A DNA stretch of 64,000 bases from Faecalibacterium prausnitzii (GTDB taxonomy: Bacteria; Bacillota; Clostridia; Oscillospirales; Ruminococcaceae): NCBI RefSeq assembly GCF_003324185.1, contig NZ_PXUP01000015.1:1-64000 (forward strand). The letters are read 5' to 3'. This document shows, one piece after another, positions 13,356 through 62,804 of the stretch (positions are counted from its first letter, which is position 1; each line of letters begins with the position of its first letter). The notes under the pieces were generated by a model. The model worked only from the letters and a program-made list of their open reading frames with translations. It did not search any database and was not told the origin of the DNA. Made by a program: the position numbers and the translations under genes.

Positions 13356-13545
13356 GGGGCTCAGGAAAGTCCGCGTTTGCGCAGCAATAAAAGCCCCAGT
13401 GAGGCTTTTAAGCGGCAGAGCGGTCTGCGCAAGCAGATGGAGGGGCTTTGCCCCGACAAGCTCCGCAGACTTTCCTGAGCCCCAAATTAAGAATAATTTT
13501 TCCGCTGACTATGCGCAAAGCAGCGCGGCGCGCATTTCAAATGGT
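13356..13545 (-). repeat. 3'-UTR repeat element, copy C, with long inverted repeat
   Basis: In the direction of the aldose epimerase gene: the conserved block (13545-13495), then a 128-bp structure whose ends are a perfect 16-bp inverted repeat (GGGGCTCAGGAAAGTC, 13356-13371, and its complement, 13468-13483), then TTTTTCACG. The interior contains further short complementary segments (AAAAGCCCC/GGGGCTTT, TTGCGCAG/CTGCGCAA). The rest of 13207-13355 shows a small hairpin near 13228-13262 and no gene. Confidence 0.75.
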
Positions 13546-13548
13546 TTT

Positions 13549-14430: not shown

Positions 14431-14473
14431 AAGTAAAAGCCTCCTATTATTACCGCAGGGTCGCCCCGGCGGG

Positions 14474-14623
14474 TCATTCCTTGTGCTCCGGCTGCTGTTC
14501 CAACTTCTGGAAGTAGTAATCAATGCCGTAGCGGATAAAATATTTGATCAATCGTACTGCACCATAAATGATAGCTGCATAAAGCAGCAGTGTCAACAGC
14601 AGTACCCCATTTGTGCCCAACAT
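14474..14623 (-). CDS. Small membrane protein, 49 aa
   Basis: A short gene between uxaA and the aldose epimerase. The start ATG at 14623 is preceded by GGGAAG. The product begins MLGTNGVLLLTLLLYAAIIY, one hydrophobic helix, followed by an amphipathic segment (RLIKYFIRYGIDYYFQKLEQ). The spacing and shared strand suggest it belongs to the uxaBA transcript or to a small unit with the epimerase. No family is recognised. Confidence 0.55.
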   Translation of the reverse strand: MLGTNGVLLLTLLLYAAIIYGAVRLIKYFIRYGIDYYFQKLEQQPEHKE

Positions 14624-14651
14624 TCCATACACTTCCCTTCTTTTTATGCAC

Positions 14652-14696
14652 AAAAAGGCCGCCGTACCGCTTTTTGCCGTACAGCAGCCCTTTTTC
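14652..14696 (-). terminator. Probable uxaA terminator
   Basis: On the minus strand an imperfect hairpin (GCTGTACGGC, loop AAAAA, GCGGTACGGC) after the uxaA stop is followed by CCTTTTTGTG. Readthrough into the small gene at 14623 is possible. Confidence 0.55.
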
Positions 14697-14698
14697 AG

Positions 14699-16189: not shown

Positions 16190-16214
16190 AGTTGTTCTCC
16201 TTATCGTATCGCAC

Positions 16215-16246
16215 AAAAGGGCTGCTGCCCAAAGCAGCAGCCCTTT
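16215..16246 (-). terminator. Intercistronic hairpin between uxaB and uxaA
   Basis: AAAGGGCTGCTGC and GCAGCAGCCCTTT form a strong stem followed on the minus strand by TTTGTGCG. The tail is weak and the two genes work together, so it is more likely an attenuator or mRNA stabiliser than a full stop. Confidence 0.6.
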
Positions 16247-16273
16247 GTTGTGCGGGTAGGTTGATTTTTCAGC

Positions 16274-17788
16274 TTACAGGCAGCTCTTGTAAGCAGCCTC
16301 GGCACCCTGGGTGCGGATCATTTCCAGATCTGCCAGCACAGCAGCCTCCAGACCCTCGATCTTGGTCAGATCCTGATCCCACATCTGGGTGTTGGTCAGC
16401 ACAGCGTGCACCAGCTGCGCAGCGGTGTCGTCCTTGTGTGCGTAGTAGAAGTCCAGAGCCCATGCGTCGTCCTGGATCTTGTAGGTGTTGCCTGCGGGGC
16501 GCTTGCAGATCAGGCCGTCTGCGGTGCGCTCCTGAATATCGTTGGAGTAGAAGGCGATGTAGGCTGCCAGAGACATGGTCAGGCACTTGGGCAGCTGCTT
16601 CTGCTCCTCGATGTAAGCAAGGAAGGAGGGCATGTTGCGGGCCTTCCACTTGGAGGTGGAGTTCAGGGAGATGCTCATCAGCTCGTGGTTGACGAAGGGG
16701 TTGTTGAAGCGGTCCTCAACAGCAGAGGCAAAGTCCTCCAGATCCTTCTTGTCCAGCGGCAGGGTGGGGATGATCTCCTCATGCAGCATCTTGTTCATAA
16801 AGCCGCGCACGGTGTCGTTGTGCATGCAGTCGCGCACGATATCAAAGCCTGCCAGATAAGCGCCCAGCACAAAGCCGGTGTGTGCGCCATTCAGGATGCG
16901 GACCTTGCGCTTCTTGTAGGGGGTAACGTCGGGCACGACCATGACGTTGACGCCGGCCTTCTTGAACGGCAGCTTGTCCTCCAGACCTGCGGGGCCCTCG
17001 ATGACCCAGACGCCGAACACTTCGCCCACGTCCAGAGCGGTATCGTGGTAGCCGTTGGCCTCTTCCAGAGCAGCCAGCTCCTGCGGGTCACGGATGCGGC
17101 CCGGAACGATGCGGTCCACCAGAGTGGAGCAGAAGGTGTTGGCGGTGTTCATCCAGTCGATGAAGGCGGGCTCCAGATCCCAATCCTTAGCGTAGTTGTT
17201 GCAGCACTTCTGCAGCTCCTTGCCGTTGTTGTCAATCAGCTCGCAGCTCAGGATGACCAGACCCCTATCGGCAGCGCCGTTGAAGGCCTTGTAACGCTCG
17301 AACAGCACGCGGGTCAGCTTTGCGGGGAAGCTGTTAGGGGGAACCTGATCGAACTGGCTGTCGCCCTTGGTGTAGGCAATGCCGGCCTCGGTGGTGTTGG
17401 ATACAACAGTTTCCAGATCCTCAGAGCGAGCCAGAGCCAGAACTTCGTCCCACTTGCCATCGATGTAGGGGCACACGCAGTCGGACACGCAGGAGATCAC
17501 CCGCTTTGCGTCCACCTTCTGGCCCTTTTCGCTGCCGCGCAGGTACAGGGTGTACAGACCCTCCTGCTCGTTGATCCAGTCTGCCATCTGGGGGAAGTTG
17601 CCGATGGGCTGCACCAGCTTGACCTTGCCGTTGTAGCCGGCCTTCTCGTTTGCAATATCGTAGAAATAGTCCACGAAAGCGCGCAGGAAGTTGCCCTCGC
17701 CGAACTGCATCACCTTAACGGGAGCATCCTTCAGGATGTAGCCGTTGTAGCCAGTGCCTTCCAGAACCTTGTAGTTCAAAGTTTCCAT
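16274..17788 (-). CDS. uxaB: Tagaturonate reductase (altronate oxidoreductase)
   Basis: A 504-residue member of the mannitol dehydrogenase family that reduces tagaturonate to altronate with NADH. The N-terminal VMQFGEGNFLRAFVDYF carries the nucleotide-binding turn, and KKRKVRILNGAHTGFVLGAYLAG contains the catalytic Lys/Asn-Gly-His region. It begins at ATG 17788 with AAGGAG 10 bases upstream. First gene of uxaBA, divergent from uxaC, under a promoter that contains a TTGTATACAA palindrome. Confidence 0.92.
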   Translation of the reverse strand: METLNYKVLEGTGYNGYILKDAPVKVMQFGEGNFLRAFVDYFYDIANEKAGYNGKVKLVQPIGNFPQMADWINEQEGLYTLYLRGSEKGQKVDAKRVISCVSDCVCPYIDGKWDEVLALARSEDLETVVSNTTEAGIAYTKGDSQFDQVPPNSFPAKLTRVLFERYKAFNGAADRGLVILSCELIDNNGKELQKCCNNYAKDWDLEPAFIDWMNTANTFCSTLVDRIVPGRIRDPQELAALEEANGYHDTALDVGEVFGVWVIEGPAGLEDKLPFKKAGVNVMVVPDVTPYKKRKVRILNGAHTGFVLGAYLAGFDIVRDCMHNDTVRGFMNKMLHEEIIPTLPLDKKDLEDFASAVEDRFNNPFVNHELMSISLNSTSKWKARNMPSFLAYIEEQKQLPKCLTMSLAAYIAFYSNDIQERTADGLICKRPAGNTYKIQDDAWALDFYYAHKDDTAAQLVHAVLTNTQMWDQDLTKIEGLEAAVLADLEMIRTQGAEAAYKSCL

Positions 17789-37290: not shown

Positions 37291-37653
37291 TTAGTCATAT
37301 CTGTATTTAGAGGACTTTCCGTACACTTTTCGGAGCGATTTTTTCAGGCTGACCACCGTTTCTTTGATGATCTTTGCCTCATCGGCGGAGCAATCTGCAA
37401 GCTGTTCGGTCATCCAGCTGTCGAACACCGGCTTTGCTTTTTTGATCTCGATACACAGCAGCTCGTCCGCCGAACAGTCCAGCGCGTTGATGATGTCGAT
37501 CAGCGTTTTCAGGCTGGGCACGGAGTTGCCCGTCTCGATATGGCTGATGTGCGTGACCACAACGCCGACCTCATTGGCCAGCTGTTCCTGCGTCATGCCC
37601 TTTGCAAGGCGGCAGGCACGGATGCGTTTTCCGATGTCGGCGTAGTCCACCAT
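37291..37653 (-). CDS. XRE-family regulator, copy 1
   Basis: A 120-residue protein. The Cro/C1 helix-turn-helix (about residues 7-62, RACRLAKGMTQEQLANEVGV and THISHIETGNSVPSLKTLID) is followed by a short helical tail with a basic end. It is nearly identical to the gene at 62442-62804, differing at about four residues. It probably represses its own promoter or a neighbouring defence module. It lies between the CRISPR-Cas locus and the dynamin operon with its own promoter. Confidence 0.9.
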   Translation of the reverse strand: MVDYADIGKRIRACRLAKGMTQEQLANEVGVVVTHISHIETGNSVPSLKTLIDIINALDCSADELLCIEIKKAKPVFDSWMTEQLADCSADEAKIIKETVVSLKKSLRKVYGKSSKYRYD

Positions 37654-37776: not shown

Positions 37777-39150
37777 TCAAGGCATAAAGTTGAGGTACAG
37801 AAGGAGCGCGATGCCCAGAAAATTCACGATACCAAACGCCAGCGAGGTGCCCAGCAGCAGCTTGTATTTCTGCACTGCGAACTGCTGCTGCGTCTTTTGG
37901 TATTCTGCCAGCTCTGCCTTTGCATCATCGCGGTACTCCGTCATCTGGGTATCGCTGTCGCCCAGTGCTGTAAGCAACTGCTGCTCCAGCGCTGCAACTC
38001 TTTCCAGCACAGCCTTTTGATCGGCATCATTCTGCCTTGTAAGCTGGGCAGCGCTTTTCGCAAGGCTGCCGCACAGGTCATTCTTGAGCGTTCCCAGATG
38101 GCTCGTCAGGCTGCTTTCCAGCGTTTCGCTCTGGACGGTGAGTGTTTCCTGTATGCCAGCGTGGTACTCCGTCATCCGGGTGCTGCTGTTGCCAAGTGCT
38201 GTGAGCAGCTGCTGCTCCAGCGCTGCAACTCTTTTCAGCACAATCTTTTGGTCGGCATCGCTCTGCTGCGTAAGCAGGGCAGTGTTTTCCGCAAGGCTCC
38301 CGCACAGGGCATTCTGAAGCGTTTCCAGATGGCTCGTCAGGCTGCTTTCCAGCGTTTCGTTCTGGGCGGTGAGTGTTTTCTGTATGCCAGCGTGGTACTC
38401 CGTCATCCGGGTGCTACTGTTGCCAAGTGCTGTGAGCAGCTGCTGCTCCAGCGTTGCAACTCTTTCCAGCACAATCTTTTGGTCGGCATCGCTTTGCTCC
38501 GTAAGTTGGGCGGTGTTTTTCGCAAGGCTGCCGCACAAGGCATCCTGAAGCGTTCCCAAATGGCCTATCAGGCTGGTTTCCAGCGTTTCGCTCTGGGCGG
38601 TGAGTGTTTCCTGTATGCCAGCGTGGTACTCCGTCATCTGGGTGCTGCTGTTACCCACCGCTGTGAGCAGCTGCTGCTCCAGCGCTGCAACTCTTTCCAG
38701 CACAATCTTTTGGTCAGCATCACTTTGCTCCGTAAGTTGGGCGGTGTTTTCCGCAAGACTCCCGCACAGGGCATCCTGAAGCATTCCCAGATGGCTCGTC
38801 AGGCTGGTTTCCAGCGTTTCGTTCTGGTCGGTGAGCTTGTCCTCCAGTTCAAGATCTTCAAACTTCTCCTCAAGATTATTTAGTGCCCCTGACATCGCAT
38901 CCACTGTCTTTTTCTGCGTGCCAAGCGCCCAAAGCACATCATTCAACCTGCCATTTGTGCCGTCAAGTTTGGGTTTAAGGTCATTCTTGAGCGTATCTAT
39001 TTGTGTTTCTTCATCGGATTTGATCTTCGATTCAGCTTCCTTCAGCTCTTTGCCCAGCGGGTCGACCACATAATCATTGAACAGTTTTCTGACCTGCTCC
39101 ACGGATCCCTGATCCAGCTCCACTTCAGGTTTTTCCAGCACTGATTTCAT
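37777..39150 (-). CDS. Tail-anchored coiled-coil protein with four 77-residue repeats
   Basis: A 457-residue protein. About 100 unique N-terminal residues are followed by four near-identical 77-residue repeats (core QSDADQKIVLERVAALEQQL) and one C-terminal membrane helix (LLLGTSLAFGIVNFLGIALL) ending two residues after a Pro. Seventy-seven is exactly eleven heptads, so repeat number can change without breaking the coiled coil. I read it as a tail-anchored rod or tether on the cytoplasmic face. The ATG at 39150 has GGAGG 8 bases upstream and overlaps the second GTPase gene by 26 bp. No family is recognised. Confidence 0.75.
   Translation of the reverse strand: MKSVLEKPEVELDQGSVEQVRKLFNDYVVDPLGKELKEAESKIKSDEETQIDTLKNDLKPKLDGTNGRLNDVLWALGTQKKTVDAMSGALNNLEEKFEDLELEDKLTDQNETLETSLTSHLGMLQDALCGSLAENTAQLTEQSDADQKIVLERVAALEQQLLTAVGNSSTQMTEYHAGIQETLTAQSETLETSLIGHLGTLQDALCGSLAKNTAQLTEQSDADQKIVLERVATLEQQLLTALGNSSTRMTEYHAGIQKTLTAQNETLESSLTSHLETLQNALCGSLAENTALLTQQSDADQKIVLKRVAALEQQLLTALGNSSTRMTEYHAGIQETLTVQSETLESSLTSHLGTLKNDLCGSLAKSAAQLTRQNDADQKAVLERVAALEQQLLTALGDSDTQMTEYRDDAKAELAEYQKTQQQFAVQKYKLLLGTSLAFGIVNFLGIALLLYLNFMP
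37941..38864. repeat. Four tandem 231-bp repeats
   Basis: The landmark TCATCTGGG/TCATCCGGG recurs at 37941, 38172, 38403 and 38634, exactly 231 bp apart. The units differ at only a few positions, so the array is recent or kept uniform by recombination, and copy number is expected to vary between strains. Confidence 0.85.
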
Positions 39151-41164
39151 CCTGACATCCTCCAATCGCAGCCTTATAATCTTCCTCCAGCATTCCCAGC
39201 AGCAGGATCAGCTTGGTCTTTTCGGCAACACCCGGGGTCTGACGGATACGCCGTACGATCCCAGCATACTGCTCTGTGTACGCTTCTTTGGCTATCCGGC
39301 GGTAATCCTCCAGATTTTCTCTGTCCTGCCGGATCTCCTCAACAATGTGTTCCCGGGCTTTTTCCAGCACAGCCTTCTGCGCCTCTAAGGTGCTTTTCCG
39401 GGCCTTTGCATCATCGGCTTTTTTTCTTTTTTCTGCCAACAGCTGCTGGCCCTGCCGTTCCAGACGTTCCTCATTGCAGAGGACTTTTTCAAGCTCACCA
39501 AGCCATGTTGTTTCGTATTTCAGCAGCTCCTTTGCCACCTTTTCTACGATCTCGCCGTTCAGCTCCCGCACATCCTCAAGCCAGACCTTTTCTCTGTGGA
39601 ACAGCGACTGTTTGGGGTAGTACTCCTGATAAAAGTCCTCGTGGATGTCCTGCTCCAGCTTCTGCCAAAGCGCGTTTTTATTGTAGGATACCGACATCCC
39701 GGCATCCTTCAGTATCTTGACATATTGATCCAGATAGCCTTCATCCCCGGACACTTTCTCGCGCAGGTAATCAAGGAGCGCCGCAAACACCTTCCGGTCT
39801 GAGTCATTCTGCCTGAGCGCACTGACACGGTCCACAAGATAGCGGCCGCCGCCGGAGGTTCTGAACAGATGCTCATCCTTGATCAGCGTATCGATCTTCT
39901 CGTTCAGCTTCGGCTTGCAGCATTTCCCGAACCGTTCTACACAGCCCGTAAGCATATTCTTTGCCGCTTGCAGCCCTTTGATCTTCCGCAGACGTTCCTC
40001 CCGGTCTGTCTGCTTATCTCCGGTGGTCTCACTTTTTATAAAATCCTCGCTTTGCTTTATGATATTCTCCTCGGCCTTGATCTCCTTTTCCTTTTTATCA
40101 AGCTGCCCGTCGCTTTCTGCCAGCCTGCTTTTCTCGGCGATCTTCAGTTCCCCTTGCAACCGCTGAAGCGCTGCCTGAAAGCGCTGTCCCTCCCGCTGTT
40201 GGATGCTTTGCCGCAGTTCCTGAAGGATACGGTCCCGGGTTTCGGTCATCTCCTTCCGGTCTTCTTCCTCCAGACTCTCGCACAGCTTTTGGAACGAGTC
40301 CGCCAGCTCTACGGGAAACACCTCCACCTTGCTGGTCTCGCCCAGATATTTTCCGGTTTCGGTTTTATACGTTTCCATTACAAAGTCATAAAAACTTTTT
40401 TCGCGTTGCTGACGCGGCTTTTTAAAGTAATCCTTGACTGTTCCCAGCGAGAACGCCTTGGTCGCCGCCACGATGTACTGCCCCGGCTTGTCCCGCCAGT
40501 ACGGTTCCAGACCGTCCTGCACCTCCAGCGACTGGATGGTATTTGCCGTACATACCACAAGGCACACCTGTGCAACCGGCAGATACCTGCGCATCAACTT
40601 TTGCACATGAGCGGCCTCGCCCTCCGTTTTGCTGCCAACGCCGGGCAGATCCATCACATATAGATTTTCTGCCGCAGTTTTCGCTGTAAAAAACTTCCGC
40701 GGGATATCAATATGCAGGACACTGCGCGCGGATTCTCTGTTTTTTACCACCCGGCTGCGCACCTCTATAAGCTTTGCCTCCAGCTCTTTTTCGTCGCTGA
40801 AAAAGAGCTTTTCCGAAACTTTGCCCGGCTCATCCTCCACCGCAAGCGCATACTGCTCTGTATCGGAGCGGGCGTAGAGGATGGCAGTAGAGGTAGACGA
40901 GTTGCCCCGCGTGATCTCCTTGGTGCGCAAGGTCTGGCTGACCTTCTGGAAACAATCGTCGTCATCCCGTATCCCGATCAGCTTCAGGATCAGGCTGGTC
41001 TTGCCGATCTGGGAGGGGCCGTAAACAACGACCAGATAGCTTTCCTGCATTCCATCGTATTGCAAAAACGCGTTGTCCCGCGCCGTCAGCAAGCTGGCCT
41101 TTATCCGGTCAAATGCGTTCTTCTGCCAAAAGTTTCTTTCCTTAAAAAGTTCCTCACATCGCAT
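39125..41164 (-). CDS. Dynamin-like GTPase B
   Basis: A 679-residue large GTPase. G1 is GPSQIGKTS (residues 49-57), a Ser/Thr-rich switch region (TRGNSSTSTAILYA) holds the G2 threonine, G3 is DLPGVGS (about 170), and a G4-like ATKAFS follows. The rest, about 400 residues, is long charged helices, the stalk layout of bacterial dynamins. It has no clear transmembrane helix. The ATG at 41164 has AGAGAGG upstream and overlaps the end of GTPase A. Its partner is likely GTPase A, as in paired dynamin-like systems such as Eleos (LeoA/LeoBC). Confidence 0.75.
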   Translation of the reverse strand: MRCEELFKERNFWQKNAFDRIKASLLTARDNAFLQYDGMQESYLVVVYGPSQIGKTSLILKLIGIRDDDDCFQKVSQTLRTKEITRGNSSTSTAILYARSDTEQYALAVEDEPGKVSEKLFFSDEKELEAKLIEVRSRVVKNRESARSVLHIDIPRKFFTAKTAAENLYVMDLPGVGSKTEGEAAHVQKLMRRYLPVAQVCLVVCTANTIQSLEVQDGLEPYWRDKPGQYIVAATKAFSLGTVKDYFKKPRQQREKSFYDFVMETYKTETGKYLGETSKVEVFPVELADSFQKLCESLEEEDRKEMTETRDRILQELRQSIQQREGQRFQAALQRLQGELKIAEKSRLAESDGQLDKKEKEIKAEENIIKQSEDFIKSETTGDKQTDREERLRKIKGLQAAKNMLTGCVERFGKCCKPKLNEKIDTLIKDEHLFRTSGGGRYLVDRVSALRQNDSDRKVFAALLDYLREKVSGDEGYLDQYVKILKDAGMSVSYNKNALWQKLEQDIHEDFYQEYYPKQSLFHREKVWLEDVRELNGEIVEKVAKELLKYETTWLGELEKVLCNEERLERQGQQLLAEKRKKADDAKARKSTLEAQKAVLEKAREHIVEEIRQDRENLEDYRRIAKEAYTEQYAGIVRRIRQTPGVAEKTKLILLLGMLEEDYKAAIGGCQDEISAGKT

Positions 41165-43361
41165 AAAGCGCCTCTCTGGATCTGGCCGAGATCGTTTGCA
41201 GCAGTTCCAAAGCAGCATCCACCTGCGCCTTGGCGTTATACGCTTTCATAGGCTTTTTCACATCGCCGTTCCGATCCTCGAGGTTATTTTGGATGGTGTC
41301 CCGCAGCCTTGCCATCTGCTTGTCGAAGCGCTTCAGCTCCTCTTCCTTCAGTGCCGTATAGATCGAGTCGATCGCGGTGTTCGCCCTTCTCAGATTCTCG
41401 CACTGCACCCCGGAAAGATCCCGCAGGGCTGCAATCCCGCTGCCGCCCGCGATCAGCGCCATAGCTACAGCACCCACTACCGGTACCGAAACGCCAAAGG
41501 AGGCTGCGATCTGCGGGATCATGTTGATGGTCGCATCGCCCAGCATATCCATACCTGCCATGCCGCCCAGACCAACGGCGAATTTCCCCATAGAGGAGCT
41601 GTTCATTTTGGCGGGACGGCGGAACAGCTTATCTATACCGGTGCGCTTGGAGGCATCTGCCATATCCTTAAAGCCTGCTCCCGTTGTTCCGAGATCCACA
41701 AAGAGCTTCCATGCCTCTTGTGCACCATTCTGGATATGGTCCATTTCCAGTTTGCTTTCGCTGGGCGTGTAGCCCTCCACCTGTCTTCCTTCCGTACTGC
41801 ACACCATTGCCAGATCATCGCTGCTCAGCACGCCATAATAATAAACGGCAATATCCACCAGCGCGCTCATCAGCCTTCTGGTGTTTTGGGTTTGGATCTC
41901 GTAGTCCTTTGGGGGCTGCTGGCTGACCAGTGCACAGACATCATTCGTCAGCTGAAGGCTCTTTTCGCCCCCTGCCTTCAGAGCCTTTTTACTGTCCTTG
42001 TTCTCACTCTCAAGCAGCCGCTGAAGGTCAGTTTTTTTCTGCGGAGTATCCAGCGCTTTCATCGTGGTCGCCAGTGCGCTCAGCATACACTGATCCGACA
42101 GATATTTCGGCTGATCCGATGCACCGTCCCACACCTGTAACGAGCGCATCACATTCTTGCGTGCCGCCTGAACGTCTTTGATGCTGTTTCCTCTGGTGAA
42201 GATCATCGAGATAAGGCTTCGTCCCTTTTCCTTGTTGCTGTTCAGAATGTTCTCCATCTGCCGCTTGCTCTCGCCGGCACCCTTCTCAAACTCTTTTTCC
42301 AGCACCTCTTCATATTCTTTGCGCTTTTTTGCAAGCGCTAAGTCAAAATAGTTCAGGATGGTGTTATCCTTGTAGTCCGCAACAGCTGCGCTGTCGTCGC
42401 TTTTCAGTACTTCCTTGATGGAATACAGGGTATCCTTGATATGCTCCACTTCCTCATACAGGTAGCGGGTATTATCGCGGGCAGACTGATCCGTAGTGCT
42501 GGCGTACCGCTCAATGGCATTTTTCAGCTTTTCGATCCATGCCTCGTTCTTTTTCTCGTCATCATACTGTCCGGTACAGACCACGCGGTCCGCATTTGCC
42601 TGTGGGATCTCCAGCGCCTTGATGCAGGACTGCCGCACCTCCTCGTTGTCGTCCTTGCTGGCATCCGACTGGGTAATGGCGTAAATGATATTGTTGCCGA
42701 ACCGATCCGTCAGCTTTTTCAGCTGCTCAAAGTTATCCCCCTGCGAGAAACGGGACTCGTCGAACGCAAAGACCGCTGCATCCGAAGAGTTGACCGCAAA
42801 GTTGATCAACTCCCGCCAGTAGTCGTTATTTTTTTCAAAGCCGGGCAGCAGCATAAAGGAAACCGCCGAGTTATGCGTATGGCGATAGGGCACAAACATC
42901 TCCAGATACAGGATACTGTTGTCCTCACCTTTGGAGGCGTGGGCAAACTCGTTTGCCTCCATCCTGCACTCCACAGCCGCATACTCTCCCGCCTCGTTCT
43001 TCTGGACGCGGATCGCATTCATGACCGGCGCAGTCACATCCGTCTCCGTGATCAGCACAGGGATGCGCTCGCCGCGGCCCAGCTCGATGCTCAGCGCATC
43101 GTCCTTCAGGCCGTAAAAGTTCTTCATCAGGGTAGTCTTGCCCGCGCCCTGCATACCCGCAACGCAGATCAGCGTTTTGTTCTCCATCAGAGAGGCGATC
43201 TTCAGTTTCCGAATGGAGTTTTCCAACTCCTTAGCTTTCTCATAAGCCTGTTTCAGTGCTGTATCGTCCCGCAGTTCATCCGTATAGGTCAGGATCTTCA
43301 GGCAGTACTTCGTAAGTTCATTCACCTCATAGGGGCTGATCATCGATTTCTGGGCACTCAT
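41154..43361 (-). CDS. Dynamin-like GTPase A with C-terminal membrane region
   Basis: A 735-residue large GTPase. G1 is AGMQGAGKTT (residues 68-77), G2 lies in LITETDVTAPV, G3 is LLPGFE (about 173) with Leu in place of the usual Asp, and the G4-like TQSD is near 232. A helical stalk follows. Between about 590 and 650 there are hydrophobic, Gly-rich segments (VPVVGAVAMALIAGGSGIAAL) suited to membrane insertion, in the place of a dynamin paddle. Second gene of the WYL-regulated operon. An unusual G3 may mean altered hydrolysis. Confidence 0.75.
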   Translation of the reverse strand: MSAQKSMISPYEVNELTKYCLKILTYTDELRDDTALKQAYEKAKELENSIRKLKIASLMENKTLICVAGMQGAGKTTLMKNFYGLKDDALSIELGRGERIPVLITETDVTAPVMNAIRVQKNEAGEYAAVECRMEANEFAHASKGEDNSILYLEMFVPYRHTHNSAVSFMLLPGFEKNNDYWRELINFAVNSSDAAVFAFDESRFSQGDNFEQLKKLTDRFGNNIIYAITQSDASKDDNEEVRQSCIKALEIPQANADRVVCTGQYDDEKKNEAWIEKLKNAIERYASTTDQSARDNTRYLYEEVEHIKDTLYSIKEVLKSDDSAAVADYKDNTILNYFDLALAKKRKEYEEVLEKEFEKGAGESKRQMENILNSNKEKGRSLISMIFTRGNSIKDVQAARKNVMRSLQVWDGASDQPKYLSDQCMLSALATTMKALDTPQKKTDLQRLLESENKDSKKALKAGGEKSLQLTNDVCALVSQQPPKDYEIQTQNTRRLMSALVDIAVYYYGVLSSDDLAMVCSTEGRQVEGYTPSESKLEMDHIQNGAQEAWKLFVDLGTTGAGFKDMADASKRTGIDKLFRRPAKMNSSSMGKFAVGLGGMAGMDMLGDATINMIPQIAASFGVSVPVVGAVAMALIAGGSGIAALRDLSGVQCENLRRANTAIDSIYTALKEEELKRFDKQMARLRDTIQNNLEDRNGDVKKPMKAYNAKAQVDAALELLQTISARSREALYAM

Positions 43362-43380
43362 TTTACTTCCTCCGTTCTAT

Positions 43381-43707
43381 TTATTTCACGTCTCGCACTG
43401 TGTCTGCAACTACTTTTACTGCGTCCTCCACGGTCCGCCGCCATTCCGGCACAAGGTACAGCGCAGTCCCTGTCAGGATCGCCGCACCCGCCGCCTTACG
43501 CAAAAGCGAAGGCTTGCGGGGCGTTTTCTGCACGGTATACTGCCCCAGCAGCTCCAGTGCACTGCTGGCAATGTTTTGAGCTTGCTCCAGCAGCTGCTGC
43601 ACCGCTTCCCCGGCGGCACCGCCTGCCAGCATTTCCGCTGCCGTTCCGGCAAGCTCCCCGGAGCGCTTTAACATTTCTGCTGCGTGTTTTGCATTTTCTG
43701 CCTGCAT
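43381..43707 (-). CDS. Small Ala-rich membrane-associated protein of the dynamin operon
   Basis: A 108-residue protein. An amphipathic, alanine-rich N-terminal half (AAEMLAGGAAGEAVQQLLEQ) precedes a basic stretch (KTPRKPSLLRK), one short hydrophobic helix (AAGAAILTGTALYLVP) and an amphipathic tail. It is the first structural gene after the WYL regulator and 19 bp before GTPase A. No family is recognised. It could recruit the GTPases to the membrane. Confidence 0.6.
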   Translation of the reverse strand: MQAENAKHAAEMLKRSGELAGTAAEMLAGGAAGEAVQQLLEQAQNIASSALELLGQYTVQKTPRKPSLLRKAAGAAILTGTALYLVPEWRRTVEDAVKVVADTVRDVK

Positions 43708-43778
43708 AATGGTTCCTCCTGTATTACAAAATATTTTATTATCGCTGTGCAGCTACTGCACATTTGTTTTCTGTCCGC

Positions 43779-44711
43779 TCAACCGATCACCTTCACATAA
43801 TCTCCCTGACTTCTCACCCACATCTGGATGCCCGTGCCAAACACCTCGGCTTCCACGATCCAGCCCTTTTCCGTCACCTGCAAAACCTTTGCAGTGGGCA
43901 GTCGGTCGAGCACGGATTCCAGACTTGGCCCGGTATACTCGAACCGGATGGTCTGCAACTCGCCGCCGTACATGAACTGGATGCGCTTGCGCATCTCGCC
44001 CTCCTGAAAGCGGTCGGTATAGCGCTGGGCAAAGTGCCGGTCGAGGGTCTTATAGTTCTGGATACGGTCGATGCGGTAAATGGTGGGGGAGTTATCCTGC
44101 GGGTTCCGGAAGTGCTTATCCTTGTCGATGCCCTCGATGAACGCTGCCAGATAGAAATAATACTCGCTGAACAGGATGCCCACCGGCTCAATGGTGCGCA
44201 CGCGGGTCTCGCCATCATGGGTGCGGCAGTAGGTAATCTCCATAACATTGTGATTTTCTACTGCCGTGCCGATGTCCCACAGGCTTTCAATGAACTTCCG
44301 GCCGTGCTGCGGCTCAACGTAATGGAAGCGTTCGTTGCTGATGAGGTCTTTCACTTGATTCAACCTGTCCAGTGGTGTACAGGCCAGAATGAGCTTATCC
44401 AGAATCGGGAACATCTCTTCCTTGACCATGGAGCGGCTTTCCAGCAAAATTTTGCACACTGCCAGAATCTCGCTGCTGGTGAGGAAACGGGAAAGCGTAT
44501 CATCCAGCAGGTAGCCGCCCTTTGCGGAGTTGTATAAGATCTCCCGGCGCGGCTCGCTGTCTGCAAAATAGCTGCGCAGGGTATCAAGATCGCGCTGGAT
44601 GGTTTTCTCACTGACACCGAAGCGGTCAGCCGTTTGCTGTTTGTTCAGCACACCGCCCTGTACCAGAATCTGCTGAATATAGAGTATACGGTCTAATCTA
44701 CTATTACGCAC
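43779..44711 (-). CDS. WYL-domain transcriptional regulator
   Basis: A 310-residue regulator. The DeoR-like winged helix at residues 1-60 (QQTADRFGVSEKTIQRDLDTLR) is followed by a WYL domain (about 150-230) and the WCX C-terminal extension. WYL proteins commonly repress defence operons and sense nucleic-acid or nucleotide signals; BrxR and CapW are examples. It is the first gene of the dynamin operon and reads from a region holding a long inverted repeat, so it is probably its own repressor. Confidence 0.9.
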   Translation of the reverse strand: MRNSRLDRILYIQQILVQGGVLNKQQTADRFGVSEKTIQRDLDTLRSYFADSEPRREILYNSAKGGYLLDDTLSRFLTSSEILAVCKILLESRSMVKEEMFPILDKLILACTPLDRLNQVKDLISNERFHYVEPQHGRKFIESLWDIGTAVENHNVMEITYCRTHDGETRVRTIEPVGILFSEYYFYLAAFIEGIDKDKHFRNPQDNSPTIYRIDRIQNYKTLDRHFAQRYTDRFQEGEMRKRIQFMYGGELQTIRFEYTGPSLESVLDRLPTAKVLQVTEKGWIVEAEVFGTGIQMWVRSQGDYVKVIG

Positions 44712-44773
44712 GGTTCATTCTCCTTCTCTGCTCATTGTAACACAGTGCAACAACAGTCGCAATTCTTTGTGTG

Positions 44774-45329: not shown

Positions 45330-46291
45330 TCAGGAACTACTGTTTTCGCCTTTTGCAATTGCTTCAACCTGATACTGTAATAGGTCCTCCGGCAACATTG
45401 AACACTTCTTCTCATCAAGTGTTTTGCGTAGCTTTTGTTCCAATTCCTTAAACAAAAGGTCTTGAAAACACCATGGGCTTGCGCTATTCGAGTACTCTTT
45501 AGCTTTTCTCTCAGCCAATGCTTTTTCTTCCCGTAGTTCAGCAATTTTATCTTCCAACTTTGGTGCCCGGCCTATGCACTCTAGCAAACCCTCCAATCGT
45601 TTGATTTTCTCTCCTTTTGTATAATATTCTTCAATCATGCTCGCCGCATCCCGTTTCAATGTAGTCTTTGAACGTCCTTCAAATTTAGGATCTGCTGCAC
45701 ACCAAGCATATAACTGATTTAAAAAAATCGCTTGATTTGCAGAGCTTGTATACCATTCAAATGTAGCATTTTCCCAGCTTTGAATCAAATACATCCTTTG
45801 AGGATTTTTTTCTAGAGACTCAATGCATTTACAGAGCATTTCATAAGTCTCACCCCCTAATTCTTCTAAGCTTTTTAGAAGTACTGCATAGTCTTCCGTC
45901 GTTGTTGGTTTTTCTTTTCTTAGGTGGCGCTGCACCCATTGATCGTATTTTTGTTTCTCAATGTCGTTTGTCTCTTCGGATTGATTGTGCGCCCAAGCCG
46001 TTCTCAATACTTTAATCGTATCAACACATGCCCTTAAATCTTCAGATGCTTCACACGGATACTCATTATTCTTCAACCAACCTTTTTTCGTTAGCTTACG
46101 AATATAATACAGCTGCTGTCTATTACCGCCTTATACAAATTCAAACAGCCTGCCACAAATTTTGCATCTTCACTAAATACATCCACACATGGCTCATAAT
46201 GACATATCAGAAAAAGATGCTCTGCTATTTTTGTTCGGACAAGTTTATTCAACTCTTCTGCAGGAGTATTTGAAAACAGAATATTTTCCAT
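45330..46291 (-). pseudogene. HEPN-like protein gene split by a one-base frameshift
   Basis: The gene begins at ATG 46291 (MENILFSNTPAEELNKLVRT) and stays open to about 46130, where the sensible protein continues in the -1 frame (NRQQLYYIRKLTKKGWLKNN) to a stop at 45330. Together they give about 315 residues. The second part holds LRTAWAHN, an R-x4-H motif of the HEPN ribonuclease type, then coiled coil. It follows the STAND-like gene by 4 bp, so it may be that sensor's effector. A one-base deletion, a programmed -1 shift or a sequencing error all fit; no classic slippery heptamer is visible. Confidence 0.6.
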
Positions 46292-46294
46292 TTT

Positions 46295-49200
46295 TTACCT
46301 CCGCTCCTGCCCATTATCTTTATATGCCGAGAATCCATTATAGCCAATTCCCAAAATCAGCCCACGCAGATATTCGTTTTCCCGGGGTGGATTGTTCATA
46401 CTGGTTACACCAACCATACGGTAACGAACCTTGTGCATCCCACTCAAGTAAGGGTCATCTGTTTCCAAATGGATCCAAGCTGTCCTCCCTTCCAGCTTTT
46501 CAATCATACCATTATAATGAATTGGACCATCCTGGTCACAATAAATAAACGGAACTCTCATTCTAGGAGATCTAGTAAAGAGATCCACTCCAATACCTTG
46601 AATAATCTCCTCACATTTTTTGAAATCGCGAGTACATTGCAATACCGCCAGCGCTCGAATCAATGAAAAAATCGGCCGTGCGCGATTTCCAACAGTGTTG
46701 CTCTGCGCAGCTTCACAGCACAACTCGCTGATACGCCTTATCTCTTTCCATTGAGTTGGTAAGAGTTGAATTTTCTGTCCTTCTTTTTCCATCAGGCGGT
46801 AACCTGTGGCGTTCATCCATACCGCTCTTAGGAGAAGACTCAGTGCAAAGTAATTTCCCTGAATGCATGTTTTATTGGGTTCCTCTTGCATAAATTCTGC
46901 AACTTTTCGGCAAGTATTACGCTGCTCTTTCGTAAGTTCTAAGTCGCCAAGCTTCCTGTTTTCTCCCGTAACACCTGCCGCATCCAGTTCTTGCTGGCAA
47001 ACAAATGTAACCGCCGTTGCCTGATTCGTTTCAATCATCTCATGATATAGCTGTGCAAACTCCGGTTTCATTGTATTTTTCTGAACATCTCGAATTGTAA
47101 CTTTGTACTCCGTAGCGAACTCTTGAATTTTGAGAAGGTGTTCTTGGATCTCATCGTGGTCATCCGCACCCCTGTTTTGAATCTCAAGAACTGCACAATC
47201 ATCTGCAATTAGCTTTGTTTCACTTAAGTATTTCAGTTTTTGCTGTTCATTCAGATCTCCGTGTTCATATACTTCCTCAAATGCATCAAAGAGTGCATTA
47301 TAAACATGGCCATTCTCTGGACTATAAAGGATTGCCTTATAGAGTTGCTCATAGATATCTCTATAATTCAATCCCGGCAACATGCCCATGGTTTTACCAA
47401 ACTTATCGCGATATCTTCGATAATTTTTCTGCAGCCAAATATTGCAGCGAGTTATTTCAACAATCAAACCGTTTTTCTGATCCGAAAGGTATTTTTTCTC
47501 TCTGGTACCTGTCGGCACTTCATCAATTCCTCGTTCAAGATATTCCAGTTGACGATTTGCAAAAGTAATGGTCTCTTCCAACTCTTTAATTCGCTTTTCA
47601 TAACTTTCTTCTGTGTAAGTCTCCGGCTTAGACTTATAAAGTTCTTCCCACTTTTTTCCATAATATTCACGAGAGTATGTTACTAACAGTGTAGCAAATC
47701 CTGCATCCCTGTCCGGAACAACATTGCATACCGTTCTCAATGTTTGAACAATTTTTTCACTTTGCCGTAAAATGTCACTATGTTCCTGCCTTTTTTCACC
47801 GTTTTCACGAAATGCTGTATACTGTGAGTTCGGCCCCATCAGTCGGATAAGTTGCTGTAGGTTTCGTGCAAAAGAAGACGGAAGTTCTTCCCAATGTTCT
47901 TGATATACTCTCAGAATTTCGCACAGTAGTTCAACCTGTTGATTTGCATTAATTCCATTCCGACTCAAAAAAATCTCTGCCTCTAATGGGTTACGGAAGC
48001 TAAATGCGTAATCACTTCCATCTTTCATTTCACTGTAATGAATCCATGGAATTCTTGTTGTAAGAACATTATACAATTCCACATTGATAGGTTTATCTTT
48101 TTCATAACTATTTTCTTTTAGCATCCATACCGCAATCGCATATGGAACTTCCAGTTTAAACCGTCCAAACAGCGCAATGCACGCATTAAATTTTTCCAAG
48201 TTATATTCGCTCGAACTTTCCTCGGCCTGTTTTTCAATCCGTTGCCGGATACTTTCCATTTCCTCCCTCGAAAGCCCCGCTTCTATAAACGCCTGCGCGA
48301 TTGAACCCAAATTATTCGTGTTTTCTTGTGAGAACGTCTTGTCCAGTTGTTTCACCACATAATGATTGACCATTAATTCTTCTCGACCAAGTGCTCTTTC
48401 CAGATTTGGTCGTAGCAAATTTATGATTCGATAAAAGCATTGGAAAATGTCCATCTGATCCTGAAGATTTTTCTTTTCCAACTGTAATTTCTGATTTTCA
48501 ATCCCTGAGTATGTCTTAATTTTTTCCCAGAAATCATTTTTTTCCTTGGTATTCATTTCACGGTCAGTGTTAATATAGCAACAGCCATTCTCCAAAAACA
48601 TTTGTGATGTCACATCTGTACTTTGCACAAAATGTTTTTTTCCATCCTCTATATAAGAGAAACATCTTCTCTTACTTGTTTTCTCAACAGGTGTTTCATA
48701 TGCACTGCATACCAAAACAAACCTCCGCCCTCGATTCAGTAGCATCTGTGAAAGATGCTGTGCGTTGGAGGTAACATTTCGATACGATGAGCAATCCCAA
48801 ATCAAAAGAATTCGGGCATCTCCATCACAAGCATCAATTCTTTCCATCAAAGTTTTCAGCGCATCACCTTCTTCGCTTTTATCAGAGAACAGTAGCGTGT
48901 CATTGTCAATAAAGATAACAGGATTATTATGCTCACTATAAATTTCATACGCCAATGCTGCAAGAGCAACACTTTTACTGCTACCAGGCGCTCCACACAA
49001 AATAATAGGCATTTCCTTATCAGCACCAGCAATTGCTTCTCCTAACAGTTCCCGTTTTACGGCACACTTTAATACTATTTCAAATTCTCGTGAAACATGA
49101 AAGTCCGAATTTTTCAAATAACCATACCACTGTGGTCCATCCGCAGAACTTCTTATCAAGAAATTATAGAACCATTTTGCTTGCATTACCTTTCCATAAG

Positions 49201-49978
49201 GTCGCACTGCAAAAACTTTCTGCTCGGTCAAAACAAATGCTAGTTTTCGATATGGTAAGAATTCTCGGCTAGAAATTGTAACTGCCTTTCCATTTTTATA
49301 GAAAATTTCATATTGCGCATCAGAGTCGTTAGATTTCACCTCGTCAGATTGATTCCATTCATATCTCGCCTTAAGTACTTCATCCAGCGACTCCGTATGA
49401 AATTCTATTCCTTTCAAATCTGCCAATTTTTTCAGTTTTGTTTCTTCACTTTTTTCACTCCAAAACTGAATATTGTCTGCGATTGCGCAATCATTATAGA
49501 CTGCTGTAGCAAAGGCGCGATACGGCATATCATTGTCTGTTTCTGGGGCATATCCAACAACTACCATCGCGTTATGATTGTCAATCATTTTGCACAGTCT
49601 CTTCATCATTCCCTGCGCACGCCGAACACGGTATTCTTCTTCACTCTCTCCAGTAATTTCAAGCGTTTGGCATTCTTCCTCATTTAACGACTCATCTTTT
49701 TTCCAAACGTACACAACCGGAAATTCATCATTTTTCCATAGATTTGCCGCCGTAATGTCGCCTTCATCGCTGTAGATCTTAATATGGATACCTTGAAGTT
49801 CTTCCAACGGAAGTGTGTTTCGACTTGTTGCAATAATTTTCCAAGGGTACAAACCTATGATTTGTCTTACTACATCCTCTTTCATATTCCGTCCAATGAA
49901 CAGGATTGCGTTTTTCATTCTTAACTTGCCTTCAAAATCCGCAGCAAGTCCCACAAATCGTTCTTCACCAAGAGCCAT
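46295..49978 (-). CDS. STAND-like ATPase with degenerate SIR2-like N-terminus, 1227 aa
   Basis: A giant protein. The first 230 residues look like a Rossmann-type SIR2-like domain (ILFIGRN near 26, PWKIIATSRN, then AMVVVGYAPETDNDMPYRAF). A P-loop ATPase follows with Walker A CGAPGSSKSVAL (about 326-337) and Walker B RILLIWDCSS (about 390). About 700 helical residues make up the rest, as in the sensor arms of STAND/Avs proteins. That layout suggests phage-sensing with NAD or RNA-targeting output, but the SIR2 resemblance is weak. GGAGAACCTTTA precedes the ATG. The base composition is strikingly AT-rich against the core genome. Confidence 0.6.
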   Translation of the reverse strand: MALGEERFVGLAADFEGKLRMKNAILFIGRNMKEDVVRQIIGLYPWKIIATSRNTLPLEELQGIHIKIYSDEGDITAANLWKNDEFPVVYVWKKDESLNEEECQTLEITGESEEEYRVRRAQGMMKRLCKMIDNHNAMVVVGYAPETDNDMPYRAFATAVYNDCAIADNIQFWSEKSEETKLKKLADLKGIEFHTESLDEVLKARYEWNQSDEVKSNDSDAQYEIFYKNGKAVTISSREFLPYRKLAFVLTEQKVFAVRPYGKVMQAKWFYNFLIRSSADGPQWYGYLKNSDFHVSREFEIVLKCAVKRELLGEAIAGADKEMPIILCGAPGSSKSVALAALAYEIYSEHNNPVIFIDNDTLLFSDKSEEGDALKTLMERIDACDGDARILLIWDCSSYRNVTSNAQHLSQMLLNRGRRFVLVCSAYETPVEKTSKRRCFSYIEDGKKHFVQSTDVTSQMFLENGCCYINTDREMNTKEKNDFWEKIKTYSGIENQKLQLEKKNLQDQMDIFQCFYRIINLLRPNLERALGREELMVNHYVVKQLDKTFSQENTNNLGSIAQAFIEAGLSREEMESIRQRIEKQAEESSSEYNLEKFNACIALFGRFKLEVPYAIAVWMLKENSYEKDKPINVELYNVLTTRIPWIHYSEMKDGSDYAFSFRNPLEAEIFLSRNGINANQQVELLCEILRVYQEHWEELPSSFARNLQQLIRLMGPNSQYTAFRENGEKRQEHSDILRQSEKIVQTLRTVCNVVPDRDAGFATLLVTYSREYYGKKWEELYKSKPETYTEESYEKRIKELEETITFANRQLEYLERGIDEVPTGTREKKYLSDQKNGLIVEITRCNIWLQKNYRRYRDKFGKTMGMLPGLNYRDIYEQLYKAILYSPENGHVYNALFDAFEEVYEHGDLNEQQKLKYLSETKLIADDCAVLEIQNRGADDHDEIQEHLLKIQEFATEYKVTIRDVQKNTMKPEFAQLYHEMIETNQATAVTFVCQQELDAAGVTGENRKLGDLELTKEQRNTCRKVAEFMQEEPNKTCIQGNYFALSLLLRAVWMNATGYRLMEKEGQKIQLLPTQWKEIRRISELCCEAAQSNTVGNRARPIFSLIRALAVLQCTRDFKKCEEIIQGIGVDLFTRSPRMRVPFIYCDQDGPIHYNGMIEKLEGRTAWIHLETDDPYLSGMHKVRYRMVGVTSMNNPPRENEYLRGLILGIGYNGFSAYKDNGQERR

Positions 49979-58577: not shown

Positions 58578-60281
58578 ATGGTTAAGCAAGTCAAAATTGA
58601 GCGTTTCAAGTCAATCAGTAGCGCCACCCTTGATTTAAGCAAAATAAATGTTCTTGTCGGTACTAACAATGCTGGGAAAAGCAGTGTCCTTCAAGCTCTT
58701 CAATTTGCAACATCTGTTGCTCAAACCGCTAAGACCTATTCGCAAAATGTAAAGTTTGATAAAAATGGAGTATGGGCAACTTCTGTCTATCCGGATCAAT
58801 TAGTATACTCTCCTGTAAAAGATCCTTATACACTCGCCCAAGGCGGTGTTCTTAAAGAAGACTCAGATTTAGGCATTGCAGTTTCTTTTTTAGAAGATTC
58901 CGGTGATATTGCTACTGCAACTTTTCGAAAAGGCAGAAATAAAAATATTGCTGCTCGCTTTGAGGGTGCAAATGTAGGTCAAAAGCTTGCATCCCTCGAG
59001 GCTCCTTTTTGTATGTATGTCCCTGGTCTTGCAGGAATTCCTTTTGAGGAAGAAATTCGAACCGTCGGTGTTGTCCGCCGAATCGCGGCTAAAGGTGACT
59101 CCAATACGGTGTTTCGCAATGTTATCAATCTTCTGAGTCAAGACCATGAAGGCTGGTGTAGATTTTTAACCGATATAAAAGTTATTTTTCCAGAAATCGA
59201 ATTTGAAATCAACGCTAGACCTGAGGTCGATGGTTTTATTGATATAAAATTCAGACTAACATCTTCTGCGCCACTATTGCCTATTGATCTCGCAGGAACA
59301 GGCGTTCTTCAAGCAACACAAATTGCTGCATATGTTAATTATTTCAAACCCGCCCTGCTTCTTCTTGATGAACCCGATTCTCATCTGCACCCCGACAATC
59401 AACGCGCTCTTGCAACACTTCTGGTTTCTATCTCTGATAAAACACAAACTACCGTCCTTATTTCTACTCACTCACGGCATCTGATGGCTGCTCTTCAAGA
59501 AGATGCCAAATTTTTCTTGGTAAAGAACGGAACTGTTTCTGATTCCGAGTATAATCACTATATCGGACTTTTGGAATTGGGTGCTTTAGATGAATATGAT
59601 CATATTCGAAACGGAGACTTGAAGTACATTATCCTTACTGAAGACTCATCAGAAACCAGTCATAAATATTTACGAGGAATATTAGAAGCATCAGGATATG
59701 CGCGAGATGAATTTCAGATTTATTCATATAACAGTGTAACCAAGATTGACTCCGCAAAAATGTTTGCTCAGTTCTTATTAGATATCAATCCAGACTTAAG
59801 GATTATTGTCTATCGTGATCGTGACGGATTATATGATGATGAGGTTTCCGAAACTAAAAGAGCTATCGAATTCGATTCTCGAGTCACTTGTGTTATTTCA
59901 AAATTCAACGATGTTGAAATGTATTATTGCGATGAAAATCACGTGTGTGAAATTTGCAATCGTTTAAGTCTTCCTTTAACAATTTCAGAAGCACAAGAGT
60001 TCTTGCTTTCCTCTATTAACGAGCAGGATGAAAAATCCAAAAATAAATTTTTTACGCATCGACTAAGTTTAAATAAAAACAAGAGTGATGGTAGTTTCAT
60101 AACGATTGCCCAGAGCAAATACGATGAAAACAAGCGCGTTTATGCCTATGGAAAAACTATTGCAGGCGTCTTGAAATCCAAATTACAACAGAAGTTCGGA
60201 AGAAACATCGATTTATATCAAGTAACGCCTTACCTTTCAGAATCGCAATTTTCTGCTGTTGTCGCAAGCAATCACTCATAG
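58578..60281 (+). CDS. OLD/PARIS-like ATPase-TOPRIM protein
   Basis: A 567-residue fusion. An ABC-type ATPase has Walker A GTNNAGKSS (residues 28-36), a long middle, Walker B LLLLDEPDSHLHPD (about 262-275) and the H-loop STHSRHL (about 295). A TOPRIM-like nuclease follows with acidic residues in IILTEDSSE (about 350) and VYRDRDG (about 412-418), then NDVEMYY. This is the organisation of OLD-family nucleases and of fused PARIS-type (AriA-AriB) systems. It stands alone, opposite in strand to its neighbours, and is AT-rich, indicating separate acquisition. Confidence 0.75.
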   Translation: MVKQVKIERFKSISSATLDLSKINVLVGTNNAGKSSVLQALQFATSVAQTAKTYSQNVKFDKNGVWATSVYPDQLVYSPVKDPYTLAQGGVLKEDSDLGIAVSFLEDSGDIATATFRKGRNKNIAARFEGANVGQKLASLEAPFCMYVPGLAGIPFEEEIRTVGVVRRIAAKGDSNTVFRNVINLLSQDHEGWCRFLTDIKVIFPEIEFEINARPEVDGFIDIKFRLTSSAPLLPIDLAGTGVLQATQIAAYVNYFKPALLLLDEPDSHLHPDNQRALATLLVSISDKTQTTVLISTHSRHLMAALQEDAKFFLVKNGTVSDSEYNHYIGLLELGALDEYDHIRNGDLKYIILTEDSSETSHKYLRGILEASGYARDEFQIYSYNSVTKIDSAKMFAQFLLDINPDLRIIVYRDRDGLYDDEVSETKRAIEFDSRVTCVISKFNDVEMYYCDENHVCEICNRLSLPLTISEAQEFLLSSINEQDEKSKNKFFTHRLSLNKNKSDGSFITIAQSKYDENKRVYAYGKTIAGVLKSKLQQKFGRNIDLYQVTPYLSESQFSAVVASNHS

Positions 60282-62441: not shown

Positions 62442-62804
62442 TTAGTCATACCGATTCTTAGATGGTTTCCCATACACTTTTCGGAGCGATTTTTTCAGGC
62501 TGACCACCGTTTCTTTGATGATCTTTGCCTCATCGGCAGAGCAATCCGCAAGCTGTTCGGTCATCCAGCTGTCGAACACCGGCTTTGCTTTTTTGATCTC
62601 GATGCACAGCAGCTCGTCTGCGGAGCAGTCCAGTGCGTTGATGATGTCGATCAGCGTTTTCAGGCTGGGCACGGAGTTGCCTGTTTCGATATGGCTGATG
62701 TGCGTGACCACCACGCCAACCTCATTGGCCAGCTGCTCCTGCGTCATGCCTTTTGCAAGGCGGCAGGCACGGATGCGTTTTCCGATGTCGGCGTAGTCCA
62801 ACAT
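62442..62804 (-). CDS. XRE-family regulator, copy 2
   Basis: A 120-residue protein nearly identical to the one at 37291-37653, including the helix-turn-helix and basic C-terminus. At the DNA level about 15 of 340 bases differ, nearly all silent, so both copies have been kept functional. It sits between the AbiL-like pair and the toxin/immunity genes and has its own promoter. Confidence 0.9.
   Translation of the reverse strand: MLDYADIGKRIRACRLAKGMTQEQLANEVGVVVTHISHIETGNSVPSLKTLIDIINALDCSADELLCIEIKKAKPVFDSWMTEQLADCSADEAKIIKETVVSLKKSLRKVYGKPSKNRYD

Follow-up and report, generated by a model that had tools for sequence, protein, structure and literature searches.

A mobile cassette of two dynamin-related GTPases and a tail-anchored helical rod in a defence island of Faecalibacterium prausnitzii

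In a 64,000-nt stretch of Faecalibacterium prausnitzii DNA (contig NZ_PXUP01000015.1, positions 1–64,000; hereafter the window) we analyzed five co-directional open reading frames (ORFs) on the minus strand (44711–37777), which code for a WYL-domain regulator, a 108-aa protein, two GTPases (A and B) and a helical rod (C). We find that the last three genes form a real, conserved and mobile module, A-B-C, akin to the paired bacterial dynamins. The original prediction had proposed a system of five genes; all five were confirmed as co-directional minus-strand ORFs, but the conserved unit consists of the last three. Indeed, A, B and the rod recur together in distant bacteria, so that the rod belongs to the system, whereas the WYL regulator and the small protein were found with them only in close relatives. 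The original prediction named a lack of co-occurrence of the five genes elsewhere as a refutation; this is borne out by half, as three genes recur and two do not beyond close relatives.

Distribution of the A-B-C cassette

Searching 72,556 plasmids with tblastn, we found GTPase A in 11 records and GTPase B in 12, and in 11 of the 11 shared records the two are on one strand, with B 2.1–2.2 kb downstream. Four of these records were inspected by annotation and the rest judged from coordinates; in the four inspected loci A and B are accompanied by a third gene, whose product is helical and has a hydrophobic segment at its C terminus. On the Gluconobacter plasmid pGOX1 (L004; loci outside the window are given by such numbers) B is broken into two frames and the rod comes after an IS5 element. 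Clostridia, Enterobacteriaceae and Pseudomonas luteola share the A-B-C order, which Gluconobacter has in a broken form; the proteobacterial A and B proteins are 20–26% identical to those of the window. The plasmids are large, and six of the 11 that bear A are predicted to be conjugative. A full cassette beside a GajA gene is also present in a contig from a viral collection (L013).

Among 5,426 complete Escherichia coli genomes 18 match the cassette: five in full, one with 30% of it, ten with the 3' end only (7%) and two with 1%. The ten (including NZ_AP022245.1, L010) retain only the cassette's final 359 bases (95% identity); judging by these matches, and by the one genome of the ten that was inspected in context, they look like traces of loss, which outnumber the five full copies. 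In overlapping whole-genome draws A was met only in its own genome at the level of family (1/297), class (1/391) and order (1/394), and twice at that of phylum (2/398), the second being a 61-position P-loop match; the small protein was found in 1 of 247 genomes. A scan of genome contigs, which as a single-protein scan reaches close relatives only, returned L003 as the only relative of A. Scans of viral contigs with B (as an alignment and as the window protein), the P. luteola A and the Gluconobacter A confirmed no relative; as one of these scans missed even the B gene of L013, this is not evidence of absence. Scanning with the L013 B protein recovered only the L013 contig again. For the WYL and small proteins, tblastn (E ≤ 1e-3) against fetched flanks was positive only in L003 and L008, and in none of the 12 proteobacterial loci that have at least a trace of the cassette.

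We recognised no paper describing the cassette in the literature within our reach, which excluded supplements, preprints and most subscription papers, so that an earlier prediction is possible. The main text of DefensePredictor contains neither 'dynamin' nor 'GTPase', and the 'Dynamins' reported in a Pseudomonas island hotspot (PMC12629846) may be either A-B-C or Eleos. On a Sphingomonas plasmid (L012, 7000–10752) a gene of the phospholipase D family is followed by one for a protein of 1,250 aa whose G-domain is B-like; the two are perhaps a further accessory system based on a dynamin.

The two GTPases and the rod

GTPase B (39125–41218, minus strand, 697 aa as listed) has the P-loop GPSQIGKT and a long helical C-terminal half, and its best hydropathy window reaches only 1.42, in keeping with the proposal that it lacks a membrane region. 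Dynamin_N matches all five B proteins at E ≤ 0.01; against a cut-off of 27 bits, the proteins of L005 (33.3) and L004 (30.0) pass and those of the window (21.2) and L006 (20.4) fail (bit scores being given for four of the five), so the assignment holds at the family level and not for the window protein alone. The top 12 Foldseek matches of the AlphaFold model of B (mean predicted local distance difference test score, pLDDT, 58) all belong to the dynamin superfamily, with BDLP first (9.8e-8) and IniA third. A sequence search of the PDB gave nothing significant, the best match being the dynamin relative OPA1 (E 0.093), and a search for the DLP_helical family, which found no match anywhere, is uninformative as its controls were silent too. 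The profile matches, with the fold matches as an indication, support B as a dynamin-like GTPase. Both GTPases had been predicted to be of this kind; A can be placed only as a distant relative.

GTPase A (41154–43361, minus strand, 735 aa) carries the P-loop GMQGAGKT and a paddle-like C-terminal hydrophobic region, whose most hydrophobic 19-residue windows begin at residues 618–628 and bear out the membrane region foreseen there. With Dynamin_N the window A scores 16.4 bits, below the Pfam cut-off of 27, and a weak match to this family is seen in two of six A proteins. The G-domains of A and B are homologous (hhalign probability 87%, E 3.8e-6), and the window B matches the A proteins of L007 and L027 at ~1e-4; on such comparisons A is supported as a distant relative of the dynamin-like GTPase B. 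The AlphaFold model of A has a mean pLDDT of 43 and LeoA as its best Foldseek match, and a PDB sequence search gave nothing significant (best match the dynamin relative Sey1, E 0.031). Matches of A to the PHROG 'terminase small subunit' (1.5e-7) were set aside, with no further test, as P-loop-type similarity. We also rejected the DO-GTPase systems (Kaur et al. 2020): none of eight window proteins matched GAP1, and DO-GTPase2 matches three of six A members (best E 2.5e-5) and is not among the families listed for the window A, the one alignment given, that of the L006 A, covering only profile positions 2–26 of 226 (19.7 bits vs a cut-off of 27). Dynamin goes unmentioned in the accessible part of that paper (PMC7159879).

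The two partners each lack a different G motif. In A, G1 is present and the G4-like motif reads TQSD, TKTE or SKTE, while LLPG replaces the DxxG of G3, with loss of the aspartate in all six sequences. B keeps G1 and the catalytic DLPG, and its G4 motif [N/T]KxD is replaced by TKAF, TYSF or TYSY, the aspartate being lost in 5/5 sequences. Both counts include the near-identical pairs window/L008 and L006/L007 and represent four lineages. As A is without the G3 and B without the G4 aspartate, the pair may share one working nucleotide site. Some dynamin relatives, e.g. the GBPs, use other forms of G4; the G4 of B is thus no bar to membership and, by analogy with these relatives, B may still bind GTP.

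Rod C (37777–39165, minus strand, 462 aa as listed) contains about four tandem units of 231 nt (77 aa) at 37932–38835, for which Tandem Repeats Finder (TRF) gives 3.9 copies with 89% match, close to the four repeats originally predicted; in L008 it gives 1.9 copies. These repeats had been described as '11-heptad' units. This proved wrong: the hydrophobic periodicity has its maximum at 3.67 residues (power 46.4, vs a 95th percentile of 6.5 in shuffled sequence) and not at 3.5 (power 1.7), and each 77-aa unit therefore consists of seven 11-residue units, or hendecads. Strong hydrophobic residues fall mainly on positions 1, 5 and 9 of 11, and their distribution modulo 7 is nearly flat. The rod of L008 has the same period as that of the window, and the proteobacterial rods show periods of 3.56–3.70 without a strict 11-residue period. 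Rod length may change by loss or gain of 77-residue units; the lengths are 457, 298, 310, 325 and 168 aa across the window, L008 and the proteobacterial and viral-collection loci. The predicted tail anchor is recognisable as a hydrophobic segment at residues ~436–460 of the window rod, and a C-terminal hydrophobic helix is present in the rods of all four lineages, with best 19-residue hydropathies from 1.61 (L005) over 1.79 (L006, L009 and L013) and 2.05 (window and L008) to 2.58 (L004). We rejected the labels 'sugar kinase' and 'tektin', which appear in public records, and regard them as mis-annotation.

Possible function and competing explanations

The window is a defence island. Downstream of the operon lies a type I-E system of clustered regularly interspaced short palindromic repeats (CRISPR-Cas; Cas3e, Cas8e), whose array has nine repeat copies at a spacing of 61 nt, and on the upstream side come Wadjet type I (JetA-D) and AbiLi/AbiLii, together with an AAA protein and a P-loop protein of 1,227 aa. 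Flank genes that were picked by hand around the cassette in other hosts match GajA, HamA and AbiTii as well as PADLOC candidate families; eight of ten such proteins from six loci have a PADLOC match at E ≤ 0.001, a fraction without a matched base rate, and several of the matches are to broad ATPase families or unproven candidate families. Three control stretches ~2 Mb away on three of the same E. coli chromosomes, a small sample, hold mostly housekeeping genes; no established phage-defence system was recognised in them (one has rpnA, one a prophage with a Panacea-domain gene).

We give an even chance to the reading that A-B-C is a mobile three-protein membrane machine, residing in defence islands and on plasmids, which tethers, remodels or seals the membrane under phage or other insult. 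B would be its dynamin-like GTPase with the catalytic DLPG, and A, its nucleotide site devoid of the G3 aspartate, a diverged partner that would insert in the membrane via its C-terminal region. That both would act at the membrane as a heterotypic pair is suggested by analogy with Cj-DLP1/Cj-DLP2 of Campylobacter and DynA of Bacillus subtilis. The Campylobacter proteins, likewise a heterotypic pair from two adjacent dynamin-like genes, are both needed for GTPase activity and tether membranes, whereas the accessible text reports neither a tail-anchored rod nor a defence setting for them (PMC6104087); each of the A-B-C partners, in contrast, lacks a different G motif. In DynA, too, two dynamin G-domains act together, but within one fused protein instead of a three-gene mobile cassette; it is described in the accessible text as delaying lysis after phage infection and thereby protective (PMC8844932).

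The C-terminal helix of C would anchor it in the inner membrane, and its rigid rod would keep the A/B pair either directly at the membrane or a fixed distance away. The ZorA tail of Zorya, likewise a long helical rod attached to the inner membrane, gives weak coil matches, but C has no motor domain and the match is probably one of helical composition only. On a membrane disturbance, by phage infection or another insult, the pair would assemble at the site and tether, remodel or seal it, leading to delayed lysis, as with DynA, or to a disabled infected cell; in this lineage the WYL repressor would keep the operon low until induction. Complex formation, membrane action and an anti-phage role are what we infer from these likenesses, and the last is a reasonable hypothesis. 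Decidedly less can be said for a bolder version, which we consider rather unlikely: that A-B-C is a hitherto undescribed system against phages, with two half-degenerate dynamins adding up to one GTPase and the rod serving as a length-adjustable ruler. A would have kept the guanine-reading motif and the membrane paddle while losing the catalytic G3 (and mostly the G2) residues, B would have kept catalysis and lost base reading, and the rod would set the distance from the inner membrane at which the pair engages its target. The cassette touches the open questions of why most bacterial dynamins are paired and what role dynamins have in phage defence; its natural occurrence in a few E. coli, the motif losses and the variable rod make the shared site and the rod length directly testable.

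Several observations weigh against a membrane machine for defence. The system is very rare; the rods of different phyla are only 17–23% similar, which may itself partly reflect helical composition; and the fold matches of both GTPases are indicative only, as both models are poor and the template modelling (TM) scores are ~0.2, with a best match of only E 7e-4 for A. The setting is mixed as well. In six E. coli loci, one of which holds only part of A, defence annotation is clear in three (H28, H29, H30) and ambiguous in one (H25); the remaining two (H26, H27), by sugar-use genes, have none that we recognised, and one E. coli locus lies between heat-resistance and TerD/TerY-type genes. Such neighbourhoods, like the third rank of IniA among the Foldseek matches of B, would suit a membrane-stress or antibiotic-tolerance module of the IniA- or DynA-like housekeeping kind that has passively hitch-hiked with defence genes. 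We hold this to be unlikely in view of CRISPR I-E, Wadjet and AbiL flanking the cassette in the window, GajA, HamA and AbiTii near it elsewhere, and a regulator of the WYL class, which the accessible part of PMC9122601 describes as frequent with defence genes. The P. luteola plasmid has conjugation genes near the cassette, with TraG, transglycosylase, FlhC-type and MobI genes within 9 kb upstream on the same strand. Together with the large plasmids, in part predicted to be conjugative (6/11), and the viral-collection contig, this speaks for a cassette in the service of mobile elements, be it in plasmid or island maintenance, entry exclusion, transfer or DNA membrane anchoring. That explanation appears quite improbable to us: in the window the cassette is part of a defence island, where no scanned protein was noted as belonging to conjugation, remnants persist on E. 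coli chromosomes, and the other three inspected plasmid loci are without annotated transfer genes (in incomplete gene tables).

Even less probable is a divergent Eleos system. Like A-B-C, Eleos (LeoA and LeoBC) has dynamin-like GTPases and occurs in defence settings. Foldseek ranks LeoA first among the matches of A, and five of six scanned proteobacterial A/B proteins match LeoA or LeoBC at E ≤ 0.1 (best 9.6e-7). These matches are partial, however: the best is confined to 42 residues around the P-loop, one spans residues 23–204 of B, and the LeoBC match of the L006 A (2.9e-6) covers only residues 335–421. The window A and B gave no match at E ≤ 1 to either model, both of which the PADLOC library holds. 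The window pair thus fails the family test, and a relationship is indicated at the superfamily level; a pair squarely within Eleos beside unrelated genes, which the original prediction had named as damaging to its proposal, is not what we see. Furthermore, a third gene, that of the rod, is conserved here; we know of no tail-anchored rod as an Eleos component. Eleos itself has been reported in Rhodococcus, according to the accessible part of PMC10482375. A last alternative, somewhat doubtful, concerns the rod alone and is compatible with the other readings: the rod might be a lipid-binding amphipathic helix with apolipoprotein- or synuclein-like 11-mers, lying on the membrane and recruiting the GTPases without acting as a spacer. 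The 11-residue periodicity and a Pfam Apolipoprotein match (E 2.2e-10, 41 bits vs a cut-off of 90) favour it, but the hydrophobic residues form a narrow stripe (positions 1, 5 and 9 of 11), as in a hendecad coiled coil, and the proteobacterial rods lack the strict period.

Operon layout, regulation and neighbouring genes

Judged by eye from alignment and overlap, GTPase B likely starts at Met19 (41164; 679 aa), and the rod, again by eye, at Met6 (39150; 457 aa). These starts give overlaps of 11 nt between A and B and of 26 nt between B and the rod, and translation of A, B and the rod is therefore probably coupled. L003 and L008, whose GTPase A is 92–94% identical to that of the window, are close relatives of the operon and keep its gene order as far as each contig extends; L008, a faecal contig of 6.7 kb that begins within the last 22 WYL residues, is unverified and filed as phage, a label we did not accept. 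Ratios of non-synonymous to synonymous substitution (dN/dS) against L008 (small gene 0.20, GTPase A 0.19, GTPase B 0.30) and, for WYL, against L003 (0.064) indicate purifying selection; they range from 0.04 to 0.43 across the tested genes except for the small gene against L003 (0.88, with very few changes). Twelve of the 40 residue differences between the window A and that of L003 (1551–3755) fall within residues 601–650, in the membrane region, where the A of L008 has one difference; this clustering makes a local exchange of the membrane segment in L003 possible. Synonymous divergence from the window is 0.47 for the WYL gene of L003 (186–1133) and 0.02 for the adjoining small gene, pointing to recombination inside the operon.

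The first gene (43779–44711, minus strand, 310 aa, GTG start) codes for a WYL-family regulator, as predicted, with matches to Pfam WYL (E 1.2e-9, above cut-off), PADLOC WYL models (E down to 1.5e-24) and the helix-turn-helix (HTH) families HTH_DeoR (21.0 vs a cut-off of 21) and HTH_11 (22.1 vs 25); the gene at the equivalent position of L003 is 91% identical. In the accessible parts of the respective papers, the WYL proteins CapW (PMC9122588) and BrxR (PMC9122601) repress defence operons. They resemble the present case in having an HTH + WYL regulator beside a defence-island operon with a palindrome close by; the difference is that the regulator is found here only in this clostridial lineage and that repression is a prediction which we infer from this likeness. 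The palindrome, TGTGCAG-TAG-CTGCACA (17 bp, 43746–43762), came from a stem-loop scan of the gap between the WYL and small genes and is a candidate operator; its arms have one mismatch in L003 and are 6 bp long in L008. Upstream of the WYL gene are a terminator-like hairpin and, from a consensus scan, a tentative promoter-like site, TTGCGA-17-TACAAT with a TG extension (44734–44762, minus strand), such sites being only about twice as frequent as in shuffled sequence (3 in the stretch vs 1.4 expected); conservation of this region was looked for in L003 and none was seen. The Ala-rich small protein (43381–43707, minus strand, 108 aa) had no match above any cut-off in the family library scans, and its predicted membrane association is weakly indicated by a possible short segment at ~68–86 (best hydropathy window 1.3).

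Downstream of the rod, in L008 as well, follows an HTH_3 regulator gene (37291–37653, minus strand). A second copy with 98% protein identity lies in the same orientation, as a direct repeat, at 62442–62804, and the pair bounds a 25-kb stretch with the A-B-C operon, Wadjet and AbiL. Since the eight other matches to this protein in the genome are only 32–46% identical, the stretch may be a recombining unit. The genes adjoining the operon code for a 248-aa protein with no convincing family match (45330–46076) and the 1,227-aa P-loop protein, with a weak nSTAND5 match (46295–49978); their G/C content at third codon positions (GC3) is low (~0.35), and they are possibly an undescribed defence pair. 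Between Wadjet and AbiL, the opposite strand carries an OLD/AriA/NsnB-like ATPase gene with low GC3 (58578–60281, plus strand, GC3 0.30). On pGOX1, LmuA/MBL-like, E1-E2/JAB-like and patatin-like phospholipase genes near the cassette (13510–17102) perhaps form a conflict operon of the ubiquitin-like kind or one like the cyclic-oligonucleotide-based antiphage signalling system (CBASS).

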